A DNA stretch of 64,000 nt from Acidobacteriaceae bacterium (lineage in GTDB: Bacteria > Acidobacteriota > Terriglobia > Terriglobales > Acidobacteriaceae), in contig JAPWKE010000003.1 in assembly GCA_028283655.1 (NCBI GenBank), positions 2,976,001 to 3,040,000 on the forward strand, in the 5' to 3' direction. The translations under genes were made by a program, and so were the position numbers. The notes below the pieces were generated by a model. That model made no database searches. It was not told the origin of the DNA and saw only the letters and a list, made by a program, of their open reading frames with translations. Shown piece after piece: positions 1-63,508 of this stretch (within the stretch, counting starts at the first letter, position 1; every line of letters begins with the position of its first letter).

Positions 1-398
1 GTCGTCGTCGTAATGATGGGCGGAGCCGGGTTGACCAGAATGCTGATCGTCGCGGTGCTGGTGAGCGTCGGCGAGGACGAGTCAGAGACAGAAACCGTAA
101 AGGAGGAAGAACCCGCAACGAGTGGTGTTCCGCTGATGACGCAGCCGCTGCTCACCACCAGACCGCTGGGGGCTGCTCCCGAAGAAACCGTACAGGTGTA
201 GGCAGCCTTTCCACCGCTGATCACGATGGCCTGGCTATAGGCCTGGGTCGCGATACCTGTGGCATAGGCTCCGCCGGTAACGGTGAGCGGAGTCGTCGGC
301 GTGGTGGTGCTCGACGTACTACCGGAGCAACCGGTGAGAAGCACGGCGACAGGAACGAGGGAGGATACGACCCGCAGGAAGGTACGGCAAGAAAGCAT
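1..398 (-). CDS. Partial Ig-like (putative Ig) lipoprotein, C-terminus outside the window
   Basis: The frame opens with ATG at 398 and runs off the left edge without a stop. It begins with a hydrophobic stretch ending in a lipobox (LLTGC, Cys about residue 24), so a lipidated, envelope-anchored protein is expected. A Ser/Thr-rich linker follows, then a segment of the putative-Ig (He_PIG) type, with GGAYATGIATQAYSQAI, SGLVVSSGCVISGTP and FTVSVSDSSSPT. Such domains occur in bacterial surface and adhesive proteins. It lies downstream of the exosortase gene on the same strand, 88 bp away. No ligand or enzyme activity can be inferred. Confidence 0.75.
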   Translation of the reverse strand, partial: MLSCRTFLRVVSSLVPVAVLLTGCSGSTSSTTTPTTPLTVTGGAYATGIATQAYSQAIVISGGKAAYTCTVSSGAAPSGLVVSSGCVISGTPLVAGSSSFTVSVSDSSSPTLTSTATISILVNPAPPIITTT

Positions 399-486
399 GT
401 GGCACCTGGTGTAAAGCTGAATCAACCGCGACACGCAGCCGCAGAGGTTCTGGAAGTTTGCGATGAGGCTATCACGCCTCGCAAGC

Positions 487-2145
487 TCAACGATAGGGTG
501 CGGTGAAGTCATTCAGCCGTGCGGCGGCAAGAAATTGCCGCAAATTCTGGGTCAATTCTGCCCGGGCCCGGTCGGGGGCCATCGCCGTATCCGTCGTTTC
601 CGTACGCAGAAGCACCGGCATCACCCGGTTGGGGTCCTGCTCCAGAAGCGCATGGGTATCCGGATGGCTATAGACCAGGCCGAAGTGGCGGGCAGGCGAA
701 GAGTGCTGGCCACAGCTTCCGTTTTCGCAAAGCGTTGTGGCCTCAAGGTACTGCGTGGCACCGTCGTTGAAGAAAGAGCCGACGAAGGCTGCTTCGCCAG
801 CGGCTGTGCGCAGCGGAAGGTCCCCATGCCAGAGCCAGTCTTCCCCGCGCGCGGAGTGGCAGATCAGCGTGTCATGCGCTCCGAGAACCGGAGAGATCCC
901 TACAGAGACCACCGGGCCACCACCGACAGGCGTGTAATCGGCCCAGTAGAAGATCAGTGGCCCGGTCACAAGGTACTCGTTCCACTCCCGGCTTAGCTTC
1001 CAGTCGCCGATCTGCTTCGGGAAGTTGCCGAGAGCTTTGGGGTCATTCACTACATTCTTGTGGCCGCGTTCCGCGATCAGAGCGCGGGCGTAAGAGATAC
1101 TGCCCACCGCGAAGATAAGCAGTAGAGCGGTAAAACGCACCAGGAAAGACGAAGTCGATACGCGCTCGCTGCGCGGCTCGGAGCGAACAGGCAAAGGCGG
1201 AGGACGAAGATCGCCCGTCGCGCTGAAGCGGCGAACAAGCGAGAAAAAGAGCGTCGTCGCAAAGAAGAAGAGGCAGGCCCCGATGATGTAGTCGCCCATC
1301 TCGGCTCGGTTCTGCAGCCAGGTGATGTGCAACGCCACAATGTAATACAGCACCAGAACGCACAGGCGAACGAGGTTGAACACGTAGCCGAGCAGGATGG
1401 CGCAGAGCGTCACCATCACGATGACCCGCGTGCGGAAGCGGTAGACGTATCCCGCGATCAGCGCGATGAAGCCCATCGTGATGGAGCCGCGGATGCCGTT
1501 GCAGCCCGGAGCGATGAACATGCCGAAGTCCGGCGTAAACATCAGGCGGAGTTGATCGGGCGAGAGCTTCTGCCCCAGGGCGTGGGCGAAGCCGCGGGCG
1601 ATTGCCGCAGAGGCATGCTGCAGCGGCAGATCCACCACGAGATTAAACGTGTGCGGAACCGGGTTTACAAACCAGGTGAGCAGGATAGGAAACAGCGCGG
1701 CGCGGTACAGCCGGGTCCCGCCAAAAAGCAGAACGACGCCCGAGGTGTACGCCAGCGCAACCAGCGAGTGTGGCGGCAGAAAGATCGCCCAGGATGGCGA
1801 AAGGATAAGCTCCAGGACCGCGTGGTCACGAACGTGAACCAGCACGATGGTGGCCACAAGAACGACCAGCCCCCACCAGGTGCCACGCATCTCCCAGTCC
1901 AGCGAACGCCAGGCACGCAGGATGAGGATAAGGCTGACCACCGGGATAAAGGCGCCAATGGACTTCAGCGGATCTGTAAGCCAGAGCGCCCACAGATAAC
2001 CTGCCGTGGAGAAGATGGAGAACACGCCCACAATGGCAAGGAGCGCTGCAAGCACCACAAAAGGAGGCATCCGAAGAACGGATACGAGGCGCGCCTTAGT
2101 CGATGGTTGAGTACGCGCACCATCGACTGCTGAAGGAGATAGCAT
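487..2145 (-). CDS. xrtJ: Exosortase J-type transpeptidase with C-terminal EpsI-like domain
   Basis: A 552-residue polytopic membrane protein. Residues about 25-305 carry eight or so hydrophobic helices of the exosortase/archaeosortase family. The conserved cysteine lies in APGCNGIRG (C215) and the arginine in FNLVRLCVLV (R260). The third catalytic residue is less clear: H273 or D285 near the GDYIIGACLFF helix. After a final TM helix (about 333-352), a periplasmic domain of about 200 residues resembles the EpsI/DUF3485 modules fused to or encoded beside exosortases. Exosortases cut and re-anchor proteins bearing C-terminal sorting signals, usually in bacteria making exopolysaccharide. The J subtype is assigned mainly because the small gene directly upstream matches the XrtJ-associated TM-motif-TM family. 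Confidence 0.85.
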   Translation of the reverse strand: MLSPSAVDGARTQPSTKARLVSVLRMPPFVVLAALLAIVGVFSIFSTAGYLWALWLTDPLKSIGAFIPVVSLILILRAWRSLDWEMRGTWWGLVVLVATIVLVHVRDHAVLELILSPSWAIFLPPHSLVALAYTSGVVLLFGGTRLYRAALFPILLTWFVNPVPHTFNLVVDLPLQHASAAIARGFAHALGQKLSPDQLRLMFTPDFGMFIAPGCNGIRGSITMGFIALIAGYVYRFRTRVIVMVTLCAILLGYVFNLVRLCVLVLYYIVALHITWLQNRAEMGDYIIGACLFFFATTLFFSLVRRFSATGDLRPPPLPVRSEPRSERVSTSSFLVRFTALLLIFAVGSISYARALIAERGHKNVVNDPKALGNFPKQIGDWKLSREWNEYLVTGPLIFYWADYTPVGGGPVVSVGISPVLGAHDTLICHSARGEDWLWHGDLPLRTAAGEAAFVGSFFNDGATQYLEATTLCENGSCGQHSSPARHFGLVYSHPDTHALLEQDPNRVMPVLLRTETTDTAMAPDRARAELTQNLRQFLAAARLNDFTAPYR

Positions 2146-2210
2146 CGTGAACGAATCAGCCTGACGCAGGGCTCAGGCGCGGCACTAACCGGCGAGCCCT
2201 CCGCGAAGGG

Positions 2211-2384
2211 TTAGCGGCGGAAGCGCCCACGCAAGGCAGCGAAGGCAGCGCCTGCGGAACCAACCAGCATCAAGATCGCCGTCGGGTTCTCCGGCGAGTT
2301 AACGCAGCCGCCCTGGGCAAATGCGGGTGCTGCAACAGACAGAACAAACACGACCGACAGCACCGAAAGCAAAGTCTTCTTCAT
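2211..2384 (-). CDS. XrtJ-associated TM-motif-TM small protein
   Basis: A 57-residue ORF that begins MKKTLLSVLSVVFVLSVA and ends LRGRFRR. It has an N-terminal signal/TM segment with a possible cleavage site after AFA, then the motif GGCVNSPENPT, then a second hydrophobic segment (AILMLVGSAGAAFAAL) and a basic tail. TM, short Cys/Pro motif, TM and Arg tail is the layout of the small family found next to exosortase J. By analogy with PEP-CTERM tails it may be a substrate or a co-factor of the exosortase encoded 65 bp downstream on the same strand. Function is inferred from context only. Confidence 0.85.
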   Translation of the reverse strand: MKKTLLSVLSVVFVLSVAAPAFAQGGCVNSPENPTAILMLVGSAGAAFAALRGRFRR

Positions 2385-61411: not shown

Positions 61412-63508
61412 TTAGGGCTTGACGCCGTACTGGCCAGAGGAGAGGACGGGGTTGGTAGGAGCAGCGACGCCGAGGATCTGCACGAGTGCCGCAGGCTTGG
61501 AGGAAGAGCCGCTGCCGGAGTCGAGCACCCAAAGTGCACCGGCGCGGTCGACCTCGAGGTACGAGGGCTCGTAGAGCGAGTGTGCGGTGTCGACGGGGGT
61601 CGGGATGAAGCCTTTGGCGCCGGAGAGGAAGGATGCTGTGGTCTGGTTGTACTCGACCACTGAGCTGTTGCCGGTGTTGGCGATGAAGAGGTTGTTGTTG
61701 CCGTCGACGACGATCTGCGTGGGCTCATCGAGCCCTGCAGTGGAACTGTCGATGGCGGTGCCAGCCGTGGTGGCCGTGATGTTGCCGGGGACGTAGCTGA
61801 TGGCTGCGGCGGTCTTCGAGCCGCAGTCGCTGGAGCTTCCGCCAGCGGTCACGAACCATGCTTTGGCCGTGTTATCGACCGCGACGGAGATGGTGCCGCA
61901 GGCGGTGTTGGAGGAGGGATCAGAGACCTCGATGCCGAGGCCGGTGATCTGGATAGGGTTGCCCGCGCTGCCAGTACCGCCGGTGGCTGCGGCGGCGGCG
62001 TTGGCGCTGGGCGTGACGGTGAAGAGCTGAGCCACGTTATCGTTGATCGCCGTCATCCAGATGTTGCCGGTGTTGACGTCAAAGGCTGTTCCACGGGAGC
62101 CGCCGACCGTGCCGGTGGGTTGCGGGACGGTGTGCGTGCTAAAGGTGTTGGCCGGAGCGAAGGCTGCGCCGGAGACAAACTCCACCAGAGAGCAGCCGAC
62201 CGAAGCGCAGGAGGACTTGGAGTAGCTGGAGGTCCAGACGTTGCCTAAAGCGTCCGTGGCGATGCCGTAGGTGTTGTCGTCGGTGTTGCTGACCGGCGAC
62301 TGATCGTAGTTGAGAAAGACGGTGTCGCCGGCAGCGGTCAGTTCATAGACGCCGGTGACGTTGCCGTCGGAGAGGAAGAGGTTGCCGGAGTTGTCGAAGG
62401 CCATCTCGCGGAGAGCATCGCCGCTGTCCACGCCTGAGAGCAAATTGGATTCCTCGATTGGCGTCCCTTGCGGGGTGAAGTCGATGAGGTAGCCGCTGCC
62501 CGCGACGTAAACGGTGTCGTCGGCTGAGATGCCGAGTCCCGAGGTCGAGAGCATCGTCGGATCGGTGTATGCGACGCCGACCGTCCAGTCCGTGGGCGCA
62601 GCGGTGAGTGCGGGAGTGACGCTGAAGGCCGGGGTCGAGCTGACGAGGCCGAAGATCGTGCTGACGTTGTTTGCCGGGTAGCGCGCGATGTTCAGAGCAG
62701 CCTGCCAGACGTTGACAGGCACGGGCGAGCCAGAGACAGGGGCCGTTGTTGCCGCGAAGAGTGAGGTGCAGGCGTCGCTGGAGGACGAGATGCTGTTCAC
62801 GCAGGGCTGCAGGATGTTCGCAAGTTCGTGGAGAATGTTCTGCGGAACGACGCCGGCGGTGTTGCTGGGCGTGACCGAGTAGGCGAGGCCCGAAACGGTG
62901 TTCACGATGTTCAGCGAGTTGCCGAAAGCATCTGCGAGGCCCTGCGCGTTCGTGCTGCTGGTTGTGACGCCAGGCATCGCGGTGCCAGCGGTGACGGCGG
63001 CTTCCGTCATGCCTGTGCCGTTGGCGGGAAGGAATCCGCTGAGGGCATAGGCGGCGGCGACGGTGGTGACTTCGTCGATGTTCACGACGGTCTGGCTTGA
63101 GACAAGGCTGCAGGAGCCGAGGGCGGCGACGAGGAAGATGCCGGAGTTATCCGTGCCCGAGGCTGCACCGGGGTTTCCGCCTGTCGCGACCATGTAGGCC
63201 ATCTGGCCGGAGGGGCAGGTGGCGCTGGAGGTGATGGAGAAGTTGCCGTTGATGTCCGTTGTCGTGGTCGCGAGCGGCGTTACGGTGCCGTCGTACCCGG
63301 TGCTGGAGGTCGCGTACAGCGCGATGTTGCTGCCGGTGACAGGCTGCTGACCGCCGTAGACCGTGCCGGAAACGATGGCAGCCGTGGTGGTGGTCTGCGT
63401 GGTGCTGGAGGTGCTTCCGCAGCCAGCAAGAACGAGGCTGACAAGCGATGCCAACATGACGCGGGCGGCAACGTGGCGCCCTCTTGATTCCAAAGTAACT
63501 CGCAGCAT
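61412..63508 (-). CDS. NHL-repeat lipoprotein
   Basis: About 698 residues. The start at 63508 gives a lipoprotein signal (MLASLVSLVLAGCGS, Cys about residue 30). Next are a carboxypeptidase-like or Ig-like segment (SGTVYGGQQPVTGSNIALYAT) and an Ala/Ser/Thr-rich body. Scattered NHL-type repeats follow (MAFDNSGNLFLSDGNV, IATDALGNVWTSSYS, VVDGNNNLFIANTGNSSVV, EVDRAGALWVLDSGSG). It is envelope-anchored; ligand unknown. It converges with metC and shares the terminator at 61364. A longer frame upstream of 63508 lacks a signal. Confidence 0.8.
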   Translation of the reverse strand: MLRVTLESRGRHVAARVMLASLVSLVLAGCGSTSSTTQTTTTAAIVSGTVYGGQQPVTGSNIALYATSSTGYDGTVTPLATTTTDINGNFSITSSATCPSGQMAYMVATGGNPGAASGTDNSGIFLVAALGSCSLVSSQTVVNIDEVTTVAAAYALSGFLPANGTGMTEAAVTAGTAMPGVTTSSTNAQGLADAFGNSLNIVNTVSGLAYSVTPSNTAGVVPQNILHELANILQPCVNSISSSSDACTSLFAATTAPVSGSPVPVNVWQAALNIARYPANNVSTIFGLVSSTPAFSVTPALTAAPTDWTVGVAYTDPTMLSTSGLGISADDTVYVAGSGYLIDFTPQGTPIEESNLLSGVDSGDALREMAFDNSGNLFLSDGNVTGVYELTAAGDTVFLNYDQSPVSNTDDNTYGIATDALGNVWTSSYSKSSCASVGCSLVEFVSGAAFAPANTFSTHTVPQPTGTVGGSRGTAFDVNTGNIWMTAINDNVAQLFTVTPSANAAAAATGGTGSAGNPIQITGLGIEVSDPSSNTACGTISVAVDNTAKAWFVTAGGSSSDCGSKTAAAISYVPGNITATTAGTAIDSSTAGLDEPTQIVVDGNNNLFIANTGNSSVVEYNQTTASFLSGAKGFIPTPVDTAHSLYEPSYLEVDRAGALWVLDSGSGSSSKPAALVQILGVAAPTNPVLSSGQYGVKP

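Follow-up and report, generated by a model that had tools for sequence, protein, structure and literature searches.

In one report exosortases and PEP-CTERM proteins are connected with polysaccharide attachment (PMC12188702), and a second links surface colonisation to xrtF and the gene of its partner (PMC10936215). Dedicated one-substrate sorting systems were defined in PMC3237569, and MYXO-CTERM cleavage is described as Cys-dependent in PMC11980579. Among the matches listed in literature searches for XrtJ, exosortase J, PExPT and TIGR04199/TIGR04200 there was no paper on this system. To our knowledge the acceptor of exosortase substrates is not known, though exosortases are widespread.

The closest described system is the curated XrtJ/PExPT-CTERM pair (TIGR04199, TIGR04200). 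Here we analysed a window of 64,000 nucleotides of DNA from a soil bacterium of the Acidobacteria, which carries such a pair. The features are:

3..398, minus strand: 5' part of an NHL-propeller lipoprotein with He_PIG Ig domains, the gene of which leaves the window (He_PIG, NHL, Vgb_lyase; LLTGC)
487..2145, minus strand: xrtJ, exosortase J, 552 residues, exosortase membrane domain and C-terminal soluble domain (TIGR04199, PF09721)
490..1158, minus strand: C-terminal domain of XrtJ (residues 330-552), which resembles EpsI/DUF3485 in its position (PF11984 at E 0.21 only)
1501..1503, minus strand: codon of Cys215, the presumed nucleophile, invariant in XrtJ-like alignments
2146..2210, minus strand: gap of 65 bases between the small gene and xrtJ, GC-rich hairpin possible (not significant)
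2211..2384, minus strand: PExPT-CTERM protein, 57 residues, predicted XrtJ substrate (TIGR04200 85.8 bits, cut-off 40)
2214..2279, minus strand: predicted C-terminal transmembrane helix and basic tail RGRFRR (like tails on longer proteins)
2280..2294, minus strand: PENPT motif, where the exosortase presumably binds and cuts (motif counts in homologues)
2295..2315, minus strand: predicted mature core QGGCVNS with a single Cys (7-residue core in 55/86 minimal homologues)
2316..2384, minus strand: putative Sec signal peptide, residues 1-23, with the end AFA followed by Q24 (read from the sequence)

The original prediction had placed xrtJ at 487-2145 (-), a small ORF at 2211-2384 (-) and a lipoprotein ORF at 3-512 (-), the last cut by the window edge, and these positions were confirmed. 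Both proteins of the pair scored far above their family cut-offs; order and strand were as in relatives, and at the level of the pair there was no difference from the curated system. As the pair is already known to curators, it is ordinary as found. What the analysis adds is that the small protein has a short core, mostly of 7 residues, that a propeller lipoprotein recurs at the loci and that SPECPT copies lie next to polysaccharide genes. Also new are longer proteins with similar tails and counterexamples to a strict pairing of the small gene with xrtJ.

With the PEP-CTERM/exosortase A (EpsH) system the locus shares a predicted Sec signal, a short Pro-Glu motif, a membrane helix and a basic tail, further an exosortase with a putative EpsI-like part and, beside some outgroup exosortases, polysaccharide genes. 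It differs in that the substrate has almost no cargo, that substrates are few per genome (three were found in the genome of the window, G000) and that the putative EpsI-like domain is fused to XrtJ. An exosortase with a neighbouring partner gene is likewise reported for the XrtF system of Flavobacterium johnsoniae, a host of another phylum. MYXO-CTERM proteins are also described as having an invariant Cys next to a C-terminal helix and a basic tail. However, myxosortase is an unrelated CPBP protease with known substrates of large cargo, whereas the window enzyme is an exosortase. Finally, the NHL propeller of the neighbouring lipoprotein is reminiscent of ScyF, an NHL PEP-CTERM protein of scytonemin synthesis. 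ScyF was the best NCBIfam match for two of three scanned lipoproteins, at 33-39 bits and thus below the 350-bit cut-off. It carries its own PEP-CTERM tail, whereas here the propeller belongs to an N-terminally anchored lipoprotein and a gene of its own encodes the tail.

From these data we propose, with a probability of about 0.6, that the small protein is a cargo-less XrtJ substrate and gives rise to a Cys-bearing surface peptide which would work with the propeller lipoprotein in the attachment or organisation of surface polysaccharide. The direct basis of this reading is family membership, architecture, co-occurrence and recurrent gene linkage. We infer that the protein is exported and cut twice, that the peptide is transferred and to which acceptor, what it does in polysaccharide attachment and what becomes of it.

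The enzyme had been predicted as exosortase J. This was borne out by NCBIfam TIGR04199 (exosortase J) with 720 bits against a cut-off of 200, and Pfam Exosortase_EpsH (PF09721) matched with 113 bits. Cys215 sits in FIAPGCNGIRG. Together with Arg260 it is invariant in 19 (alignment A2) and 30 (alignment A3) XrtJ-like sequences; Asn257 is likewise invariant in the 30 sequences of A3. We take Cys215 and Arg260 to have the roles of the catalytic Cys and Arg of exosortases. In an AlphaFold2 model of XrtJ (pLDDT 81) a membrane bundle is followed, from around residue 370 onwards, by an alpha/beta domain at the C-terminus. Compared with PF11984 (DUF3485) the C-terminal part reached 11.7 bits (gathering score 26.1, E 0.21), which by itself is not significant. 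Its predicted fold was nearest to DcrB, SciW and PsbP with Z-values of 7-9, which is near background (VIA-align). Against solved structures XrtJ gave no sequence match at E 1 and no Foldseek match at E 0.001. The C-terminal part is absent from the outgroup exosortases L121, L123, L077, L122 and L113. In L113 a separate DUF3485 gene follows the exosortase, in L123 and L232 the next gene has a similar length and no Pfam match, and a separate gene beside the exosortase of G038 matched PF11984 with 63.4 bits. Genome G096 has a free-standing gene that matches the C-terminal domain of XrtJ and lacks the membrane domain (L088:7170-8171, 22.9 bits), just downstream of a small PExPT gene. The exosortase of G096 is on another contig and is devoid of the C-terminal domain. 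Possibly an XrtJ fusion was split in this genome.

In the profile search the small protein was recognised as TIGR04200, "targ_of_XrtJ, PExPT-CTERM protein", with 85.8 bits against a cut-off of 40. Comparison of the window copy with its G024 counterpart yielded dN 0.175 and dS 1.41 (NG86) or dN 0.194 and dS 0.995 (YN00). The dN/dS of about 0.12-0.20 indicated purifying selection. A GAGG is present upstream of the ATG. A chance ORF was rejected for the small gene and xrtJ because the family scores exceed the cut-offs and the small gene is under purifying selection. A defence system was also rejected (PADLOC, no match at E 0.01). The hairpin in the gap between the two genes had a fold z-score of -1.48 and 16 of 200 shuffled sequences were equally stable; hence, an attenuator was dismissed as not significant.

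The protein had been described as two membrane segments flanking a motif. The length of 57 residues, the motif and the C-terminal helix stood. From its own sequence and from 86 homologues the architecture appears to be signal peptide, PExPT, helix and basic tail. The hydrophobic stretch at the N-terminus looks like a type I signal peptide that would be cut off, and not like a lasting membrane helix. The homologue set comprised 95 distinct ORFs pooled from loci fetched either for xrtJ or for the small gene; a minimal set of 86 remained after removal of 9 long proteins. Ala or Gly followed by Gln, with the core starting at Gln, was found at the signal-peptide end in 76/86 minimal homologues by a pattern rule. 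The rule tries Ala/Gly before Gln/Glu first, and to some degree it thereby produces the Gln starts that it counts. The core had exactly 7 residues in 55/86 and contained a Cys in 83/86 (simple pattern rule); the shortest cores of 3-5 residues are probably cuts which the rule set too late.

Is the small protein a substrate? Similar tails terminate longer proteins in L074, L075, L076, L077, L078 and L122. These are few and mostly from another family. The frames of L074 and L075 (in G012 and G021) have 171 and 232 residues; those in G121, G124, G126 and G127, all of another family, have 100-183 residues. By a rough rule, about 30-120 residues of other, low-complexity sequence precede the tail. 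In each of four scanned proteins TIGR04200 matched the C-terminal part alone. Only the L074 tail, with 45.3 bits, passed the cut-off; the others had 25-33 bits. Sorting signals are marked by just such recurrence of a tail after other sequence of low complexity, which is why we read the small protein as a cargo-less substrate. The original prediction had considered it unsettled whether it is a substrate, a chaperone or a processed signal. The NCBIfam name targ_of_XrtJ and the recurrent tails now favour a substrate, and on sequence grounds this is much the best reading.

As an alternative, the small protein could stay unprocessed as a two-helix membrane accessory or chaperone of XrtJ. Its tiny size, the adjacency to xrtJ and the lack of cargo would agree with this. 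So would the free-standing match to the C-terminal part of XrtJ beside a small gene in L088 and, in the F. johnsoniae report, the deletion of the xrtF neighbour, which has the same table entries as the xrtF deletion (PMC10936215). We nevertheless consider such a function unlikely. A signal-peptidase-like site is present in most of the minimal homologues (76/86 by the pattern rule), similar tails are attached to other sequence of some 30-120 residues (rough rule), copies of the small gene are located far from xrtJ at polysaccharide genes, and five xrtJ copies well inside contigs have no upstream small gene.

The motif was PENPT in 67, PECPT in 10 and another PExPT-like sequence in 18 of the 95 homologues. 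A Cys is located four residues ahead of it in 84/95, preceded by Gly in 78 of these 84. This invites the proposal that the product is a lipopeptide: the conserved Cys would carry a lipid, as has been suggested for MYXO-CTERM, and XrtJ would remove the helix. In the MYXO-CTERM report cleavage requires the invariant Cys (PMC11980579). Yet a lipobox is absent around the Cys (QGGC), and XrtJ belongs to the exosortases rather than to the CPBP proteases. In 11/95 homologues, chiefly distant relatives, the Cys is displaced or absent, and even for MYXO-CTERM the lipidation is a proposal. We regard a lipopeptide as doubtful.

The pairing of exosortase J with the small protein, as predicted, was examined at the level of genomes. 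In 396 genomes of the phylum TIGR04200 was found in 17 and TIGR04199 in the identical 17, from two genera of one family. Among 200 relatives, TIGR04200 was present in 30 and TIGR04199 in 27, with both above the cut-offs in 27 genomes. The counts ignore kinship and the signal comes mostly from within two genera; in some genomes only part of the first-pass candidates was scored (e.g. 30/65), thus misses are possible. Outside the genus of the window (172 genomes) both were present in three, the small gene only in three and xrtJ only in none. The original prediction would have been contradicted by a small gene without xrtJ. The identical 17 genomes speak for the pair; three of the 30 small-gene genomes have no XrtJ above the cut-off. 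G038 has a shorter XrtJ-like exosortase with the separate DUF3485 gene and in G063 XrtJ is in pieces at a contig start. In G115 (completeness estimate 100%) the genome search located the small gene and the lipoprotein, and no exosortase; on this point the outcome is mixed. The locus (L092, G115:C264) has the small gene and the propeller lipoprotein together. It may be a remnant, a contaminating contig or a use of another enzyme.

For 31/37 xrtJ copies above the cut-off in the 200 relatives a small gene was located upstream on the same strand, 113-329 bases away (distance between matched stretches), in support of the pairing. Strict adjacency failed in both directions. Six of the 37 xrtJ copies have no upstream small gene, i.e. 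in G023, where the contig ends, and one each in G002, G014, G017, G018 and G022. Conversely, 15 minimal small genes had no exosortase membrane domain in the fetched stretch; the small gene of G023 on contig C25 was near the contig end and was left out of this count. G017 has one xrtJ above the cut-off, and its only small gene found is a SPECPT gene on another contig. Thus, XrtJ may serve the SPECPT protein in trans. G000 itself contains two xrtJ and three small genes: the pair of the window, another pair that lies with BamA on contig C1, and on C1 also a SPECPT copy before export genes, in which a stop codon ends the basic tail.

Gene neighbourhoods were compared in 66 loci from named genome contigs, which overlap with the 200 relatives. 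Labels were Granulicella, Edaphobacter, Bryocella, Terracidiphilus, Acidobacterium and other Acidobacteriaceae; a few loci labelled as other phyla are perhaps mis-binned. Gene maps were simple longest-ORF calls, which missed the xrtJ of L115, L126 and L127; these were placed from profile-search coordinates. A small gene was within 3 kb of the exosortase in 53/66 loci, always on the 5' side (53/53) and in 52/53 on the same strand. The NHL lipoprotein family was within 3 kb of the exosortase in 34/66, which agrees with the original suggestion that the neighbouring lipoprotein belongs to the unit. The propeller gene was 3' of xrtJ, 5', on both sides or divergent. These varied positions show that the association survives rearrangement. 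In total, the small gene, xrtJ and the lipoprotein occurred in eight different arrangements in contigs labelled as several genera.

In most xrtJ loci the next gene downstream belongs to the propeller-lipoprotein family or encodes BamA. In 18/66 loci, mostly labelled Granulicella, BamA followed xrtJ in place of the NHL lipoprotein, which is, accordingly, not obligatory. Neither the propeller family nor BamA was present in 14/66, and in four of these 14 a contig end was within 2 kb downstream. In G000 the small gene and xrtJ are directly upstream of the best-scoring BamA gene (L013:8646-13617, contig C1). This BamA copy matched TIGR03303 with 440 bits, the best BamA-type match in the genome; G000 also has a second Omp85-type match. 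In the relative L108 the surroundings comprised ribosome recycling factor, folP-type and lytic-transglycolase-type genes.

The lipoprotein neighbour had been called Ig-like. Its He_PIG Ig domains were confirmed; more fully, it is an NHL-propeller lipoprotein. The ORF occupies 3-512 (-) in the window, and the complete frame (L014:12030-14513) has 827 residues. Pfam recognised NHL repeats in it (PF01436, 34.3 bits, cut-off 20), along with two He_PIG Ig domains and a similarity to Vgb lyase. The start probably is Met39 at window position 398. This would put LLTGC, which follows Met39, in place as a putative lipobox. A relative of 632 residues (L169) was modelled with a pLDDT of 89.8; its predicted structure starts with a beta domain and also comprises a helical domain and a propeller. 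It matched the propellers of Pizza, PknD and Vgb in profile and fold comparisons. The family is large, with 32 matches in G000, 24 in G002 and 35 in G391. A second member in the window at 62501-63361 (-), 245 bits, is away from all exosortase matches found.

Within the 200 relatives the lipoprotein family was present in 26/30 genomes with a small gene and in 5/170 others; thus the family was not found in four genomes with a small gene and was present in five that have none. In 30 hand-picked genomes the respective figures were 18/18 and 1/12. For these family counts, too, only part of the first-pass candidates was scored in some genomes, which may have led to misses. The chance that a family member is within 3 kb of a random point was reckoned for 14 genomes as about 0.2-6%. 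A first tree with 13 unlinked rows had a clade of 34 linked rows only. In a second tree 21 unlinked rows were added, mostly the best-scoring unlinked copies (34 unlinked in total). Unlinked rows were labelled by coordinates; in 30 stretches then inspected neither a small gene nor xrtJ was found. In this tree the linked rows did not form one clade, and the largest linked-only group had 20 of 53 rows (support 87). The candidate of a dedicated clade of XrtJ-linked lipoproteins was rejected as it was broken up by the 21 further rows. We therefore claim recurrent linkage and not a dedicated clade.

Could the lipoprotein and BamA neighbours be accidents of a conserved gene order at a stable locus? 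Many xrtJ loci are indeed orthologous in a glk-pgl-zwf context, lipoprotein paralogues are numerous and BamA follows xrtJ in one context only. For the lipoprotein, though not for BamA, the eight arrangements in contigs of several genera argue against an accident. The same applies to the small genes of L084, L088, L090 and L092, which are beside a lipoprotein and have no exosortase next door. On balance, we think this reading quite improbable, although for BamA an accident may apply, and retain the lipoprotein as a likely partner of the substrate.

These four loci are the 4/15 stand-alone small genes that adjoin a propeller lipoprotein. Nine of the 15 precede polysaccharide genes, seven a gene of the Wza-type cluster and two an RmlA-type gene; L083 and L091 have neither neighbour. 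One representative per polysaccharide group was analysed by Pfam. In L011 this identified Poly_export and SLBB as well as a Wzz-like protein (GNVR above and Wzz below the cut-off), in L087 a nucleotidyl transferase and a hexapeptide transferase. All nine polysaccharide-adjacent small genes and that of L083 have the motif SPECPT; hence, SPECPT small genes precede polysaccharide-export or sugar-nucleotide genes in 9/10 loci. Another possibility is that the core, once set free by XrtJ, is secreted and serves as a peptide signal, as the core most often has 7 residues with an N-terminal Gln. The recurrent neighbours are the propeller lipoprotein, BamA and polysaccharide genes, however, and on inspection of the gene maps no recurring receptor or regulator was noticed. 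A peptide signal thus is very unlikely.

The preferred reading of a cargo-less substrate implies the following sequence of events. The small protein would be exported by Sec and signal peptidase I would remove the N-terminal signal before Gln24. The remaining 34 residues would be held in the inner membrane by the C-terminal helix. XrtJ, via Cys215 and Arg260, would cut at PENPT or directly behind it. The resulting peptide, some 7-12 residues long and with a single Cys, may then be handed over by XrtJ to an acceptor on the surface, for which a lipid or polysaccharide carrier is the most likely candidate. There the peptide could act with the NHL-propeller lipoprotein encoded next to it in attaching or organising surface polysaccharide. 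The SPECPT version would have a similar function in surface-polysaccharide attachment or organisation together with the products of the polysaccharide-export genes. In a bolder version sorting would occur in trans: the PExPT tail would have been split from its propeller protein and turned into a minimal gene of its own, and XrtJ would be a surface-tagging transpeptidase which joins the Cys-bearing peptide to NHL lipoproteins or polysaccharide. We give this a low probability; if true, an exosortase would attach a small peptide rather than sort cargo. A substrate of signal, about 7 residues and tag is close to a minimal exosortase assay. The XrtJ product would be short enough for identification by mass spectrometry, and any moiety attached to it would reveal the acceptor. 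Concrete candidate partners are the propeller lipoprotein, which recurs at these loci, and the polysaccharide genes; they hint at the role of the system.

Some loci deviated from these patterns. In L162 (6683-7318) two small PExPT genes are in tandem and xrtJ was not seen in the stretch. L232 (5092-7427), in a contig labelled Reyranella (Alphaproteobacteria), has an XrtJ-like exosortase with an upstream ORF with a SPEDPS tail and a gene for 199 residues thereafter, which suggests either a wider distribution or mis-binning. In L093 and L096 (G002 and G022) an xrtJ copy without a small gene has as neighbours several small, apparently membrane-bound proteins and one of 1300 residues, which reads as a TonB-receptor-like outer-membrane protein.
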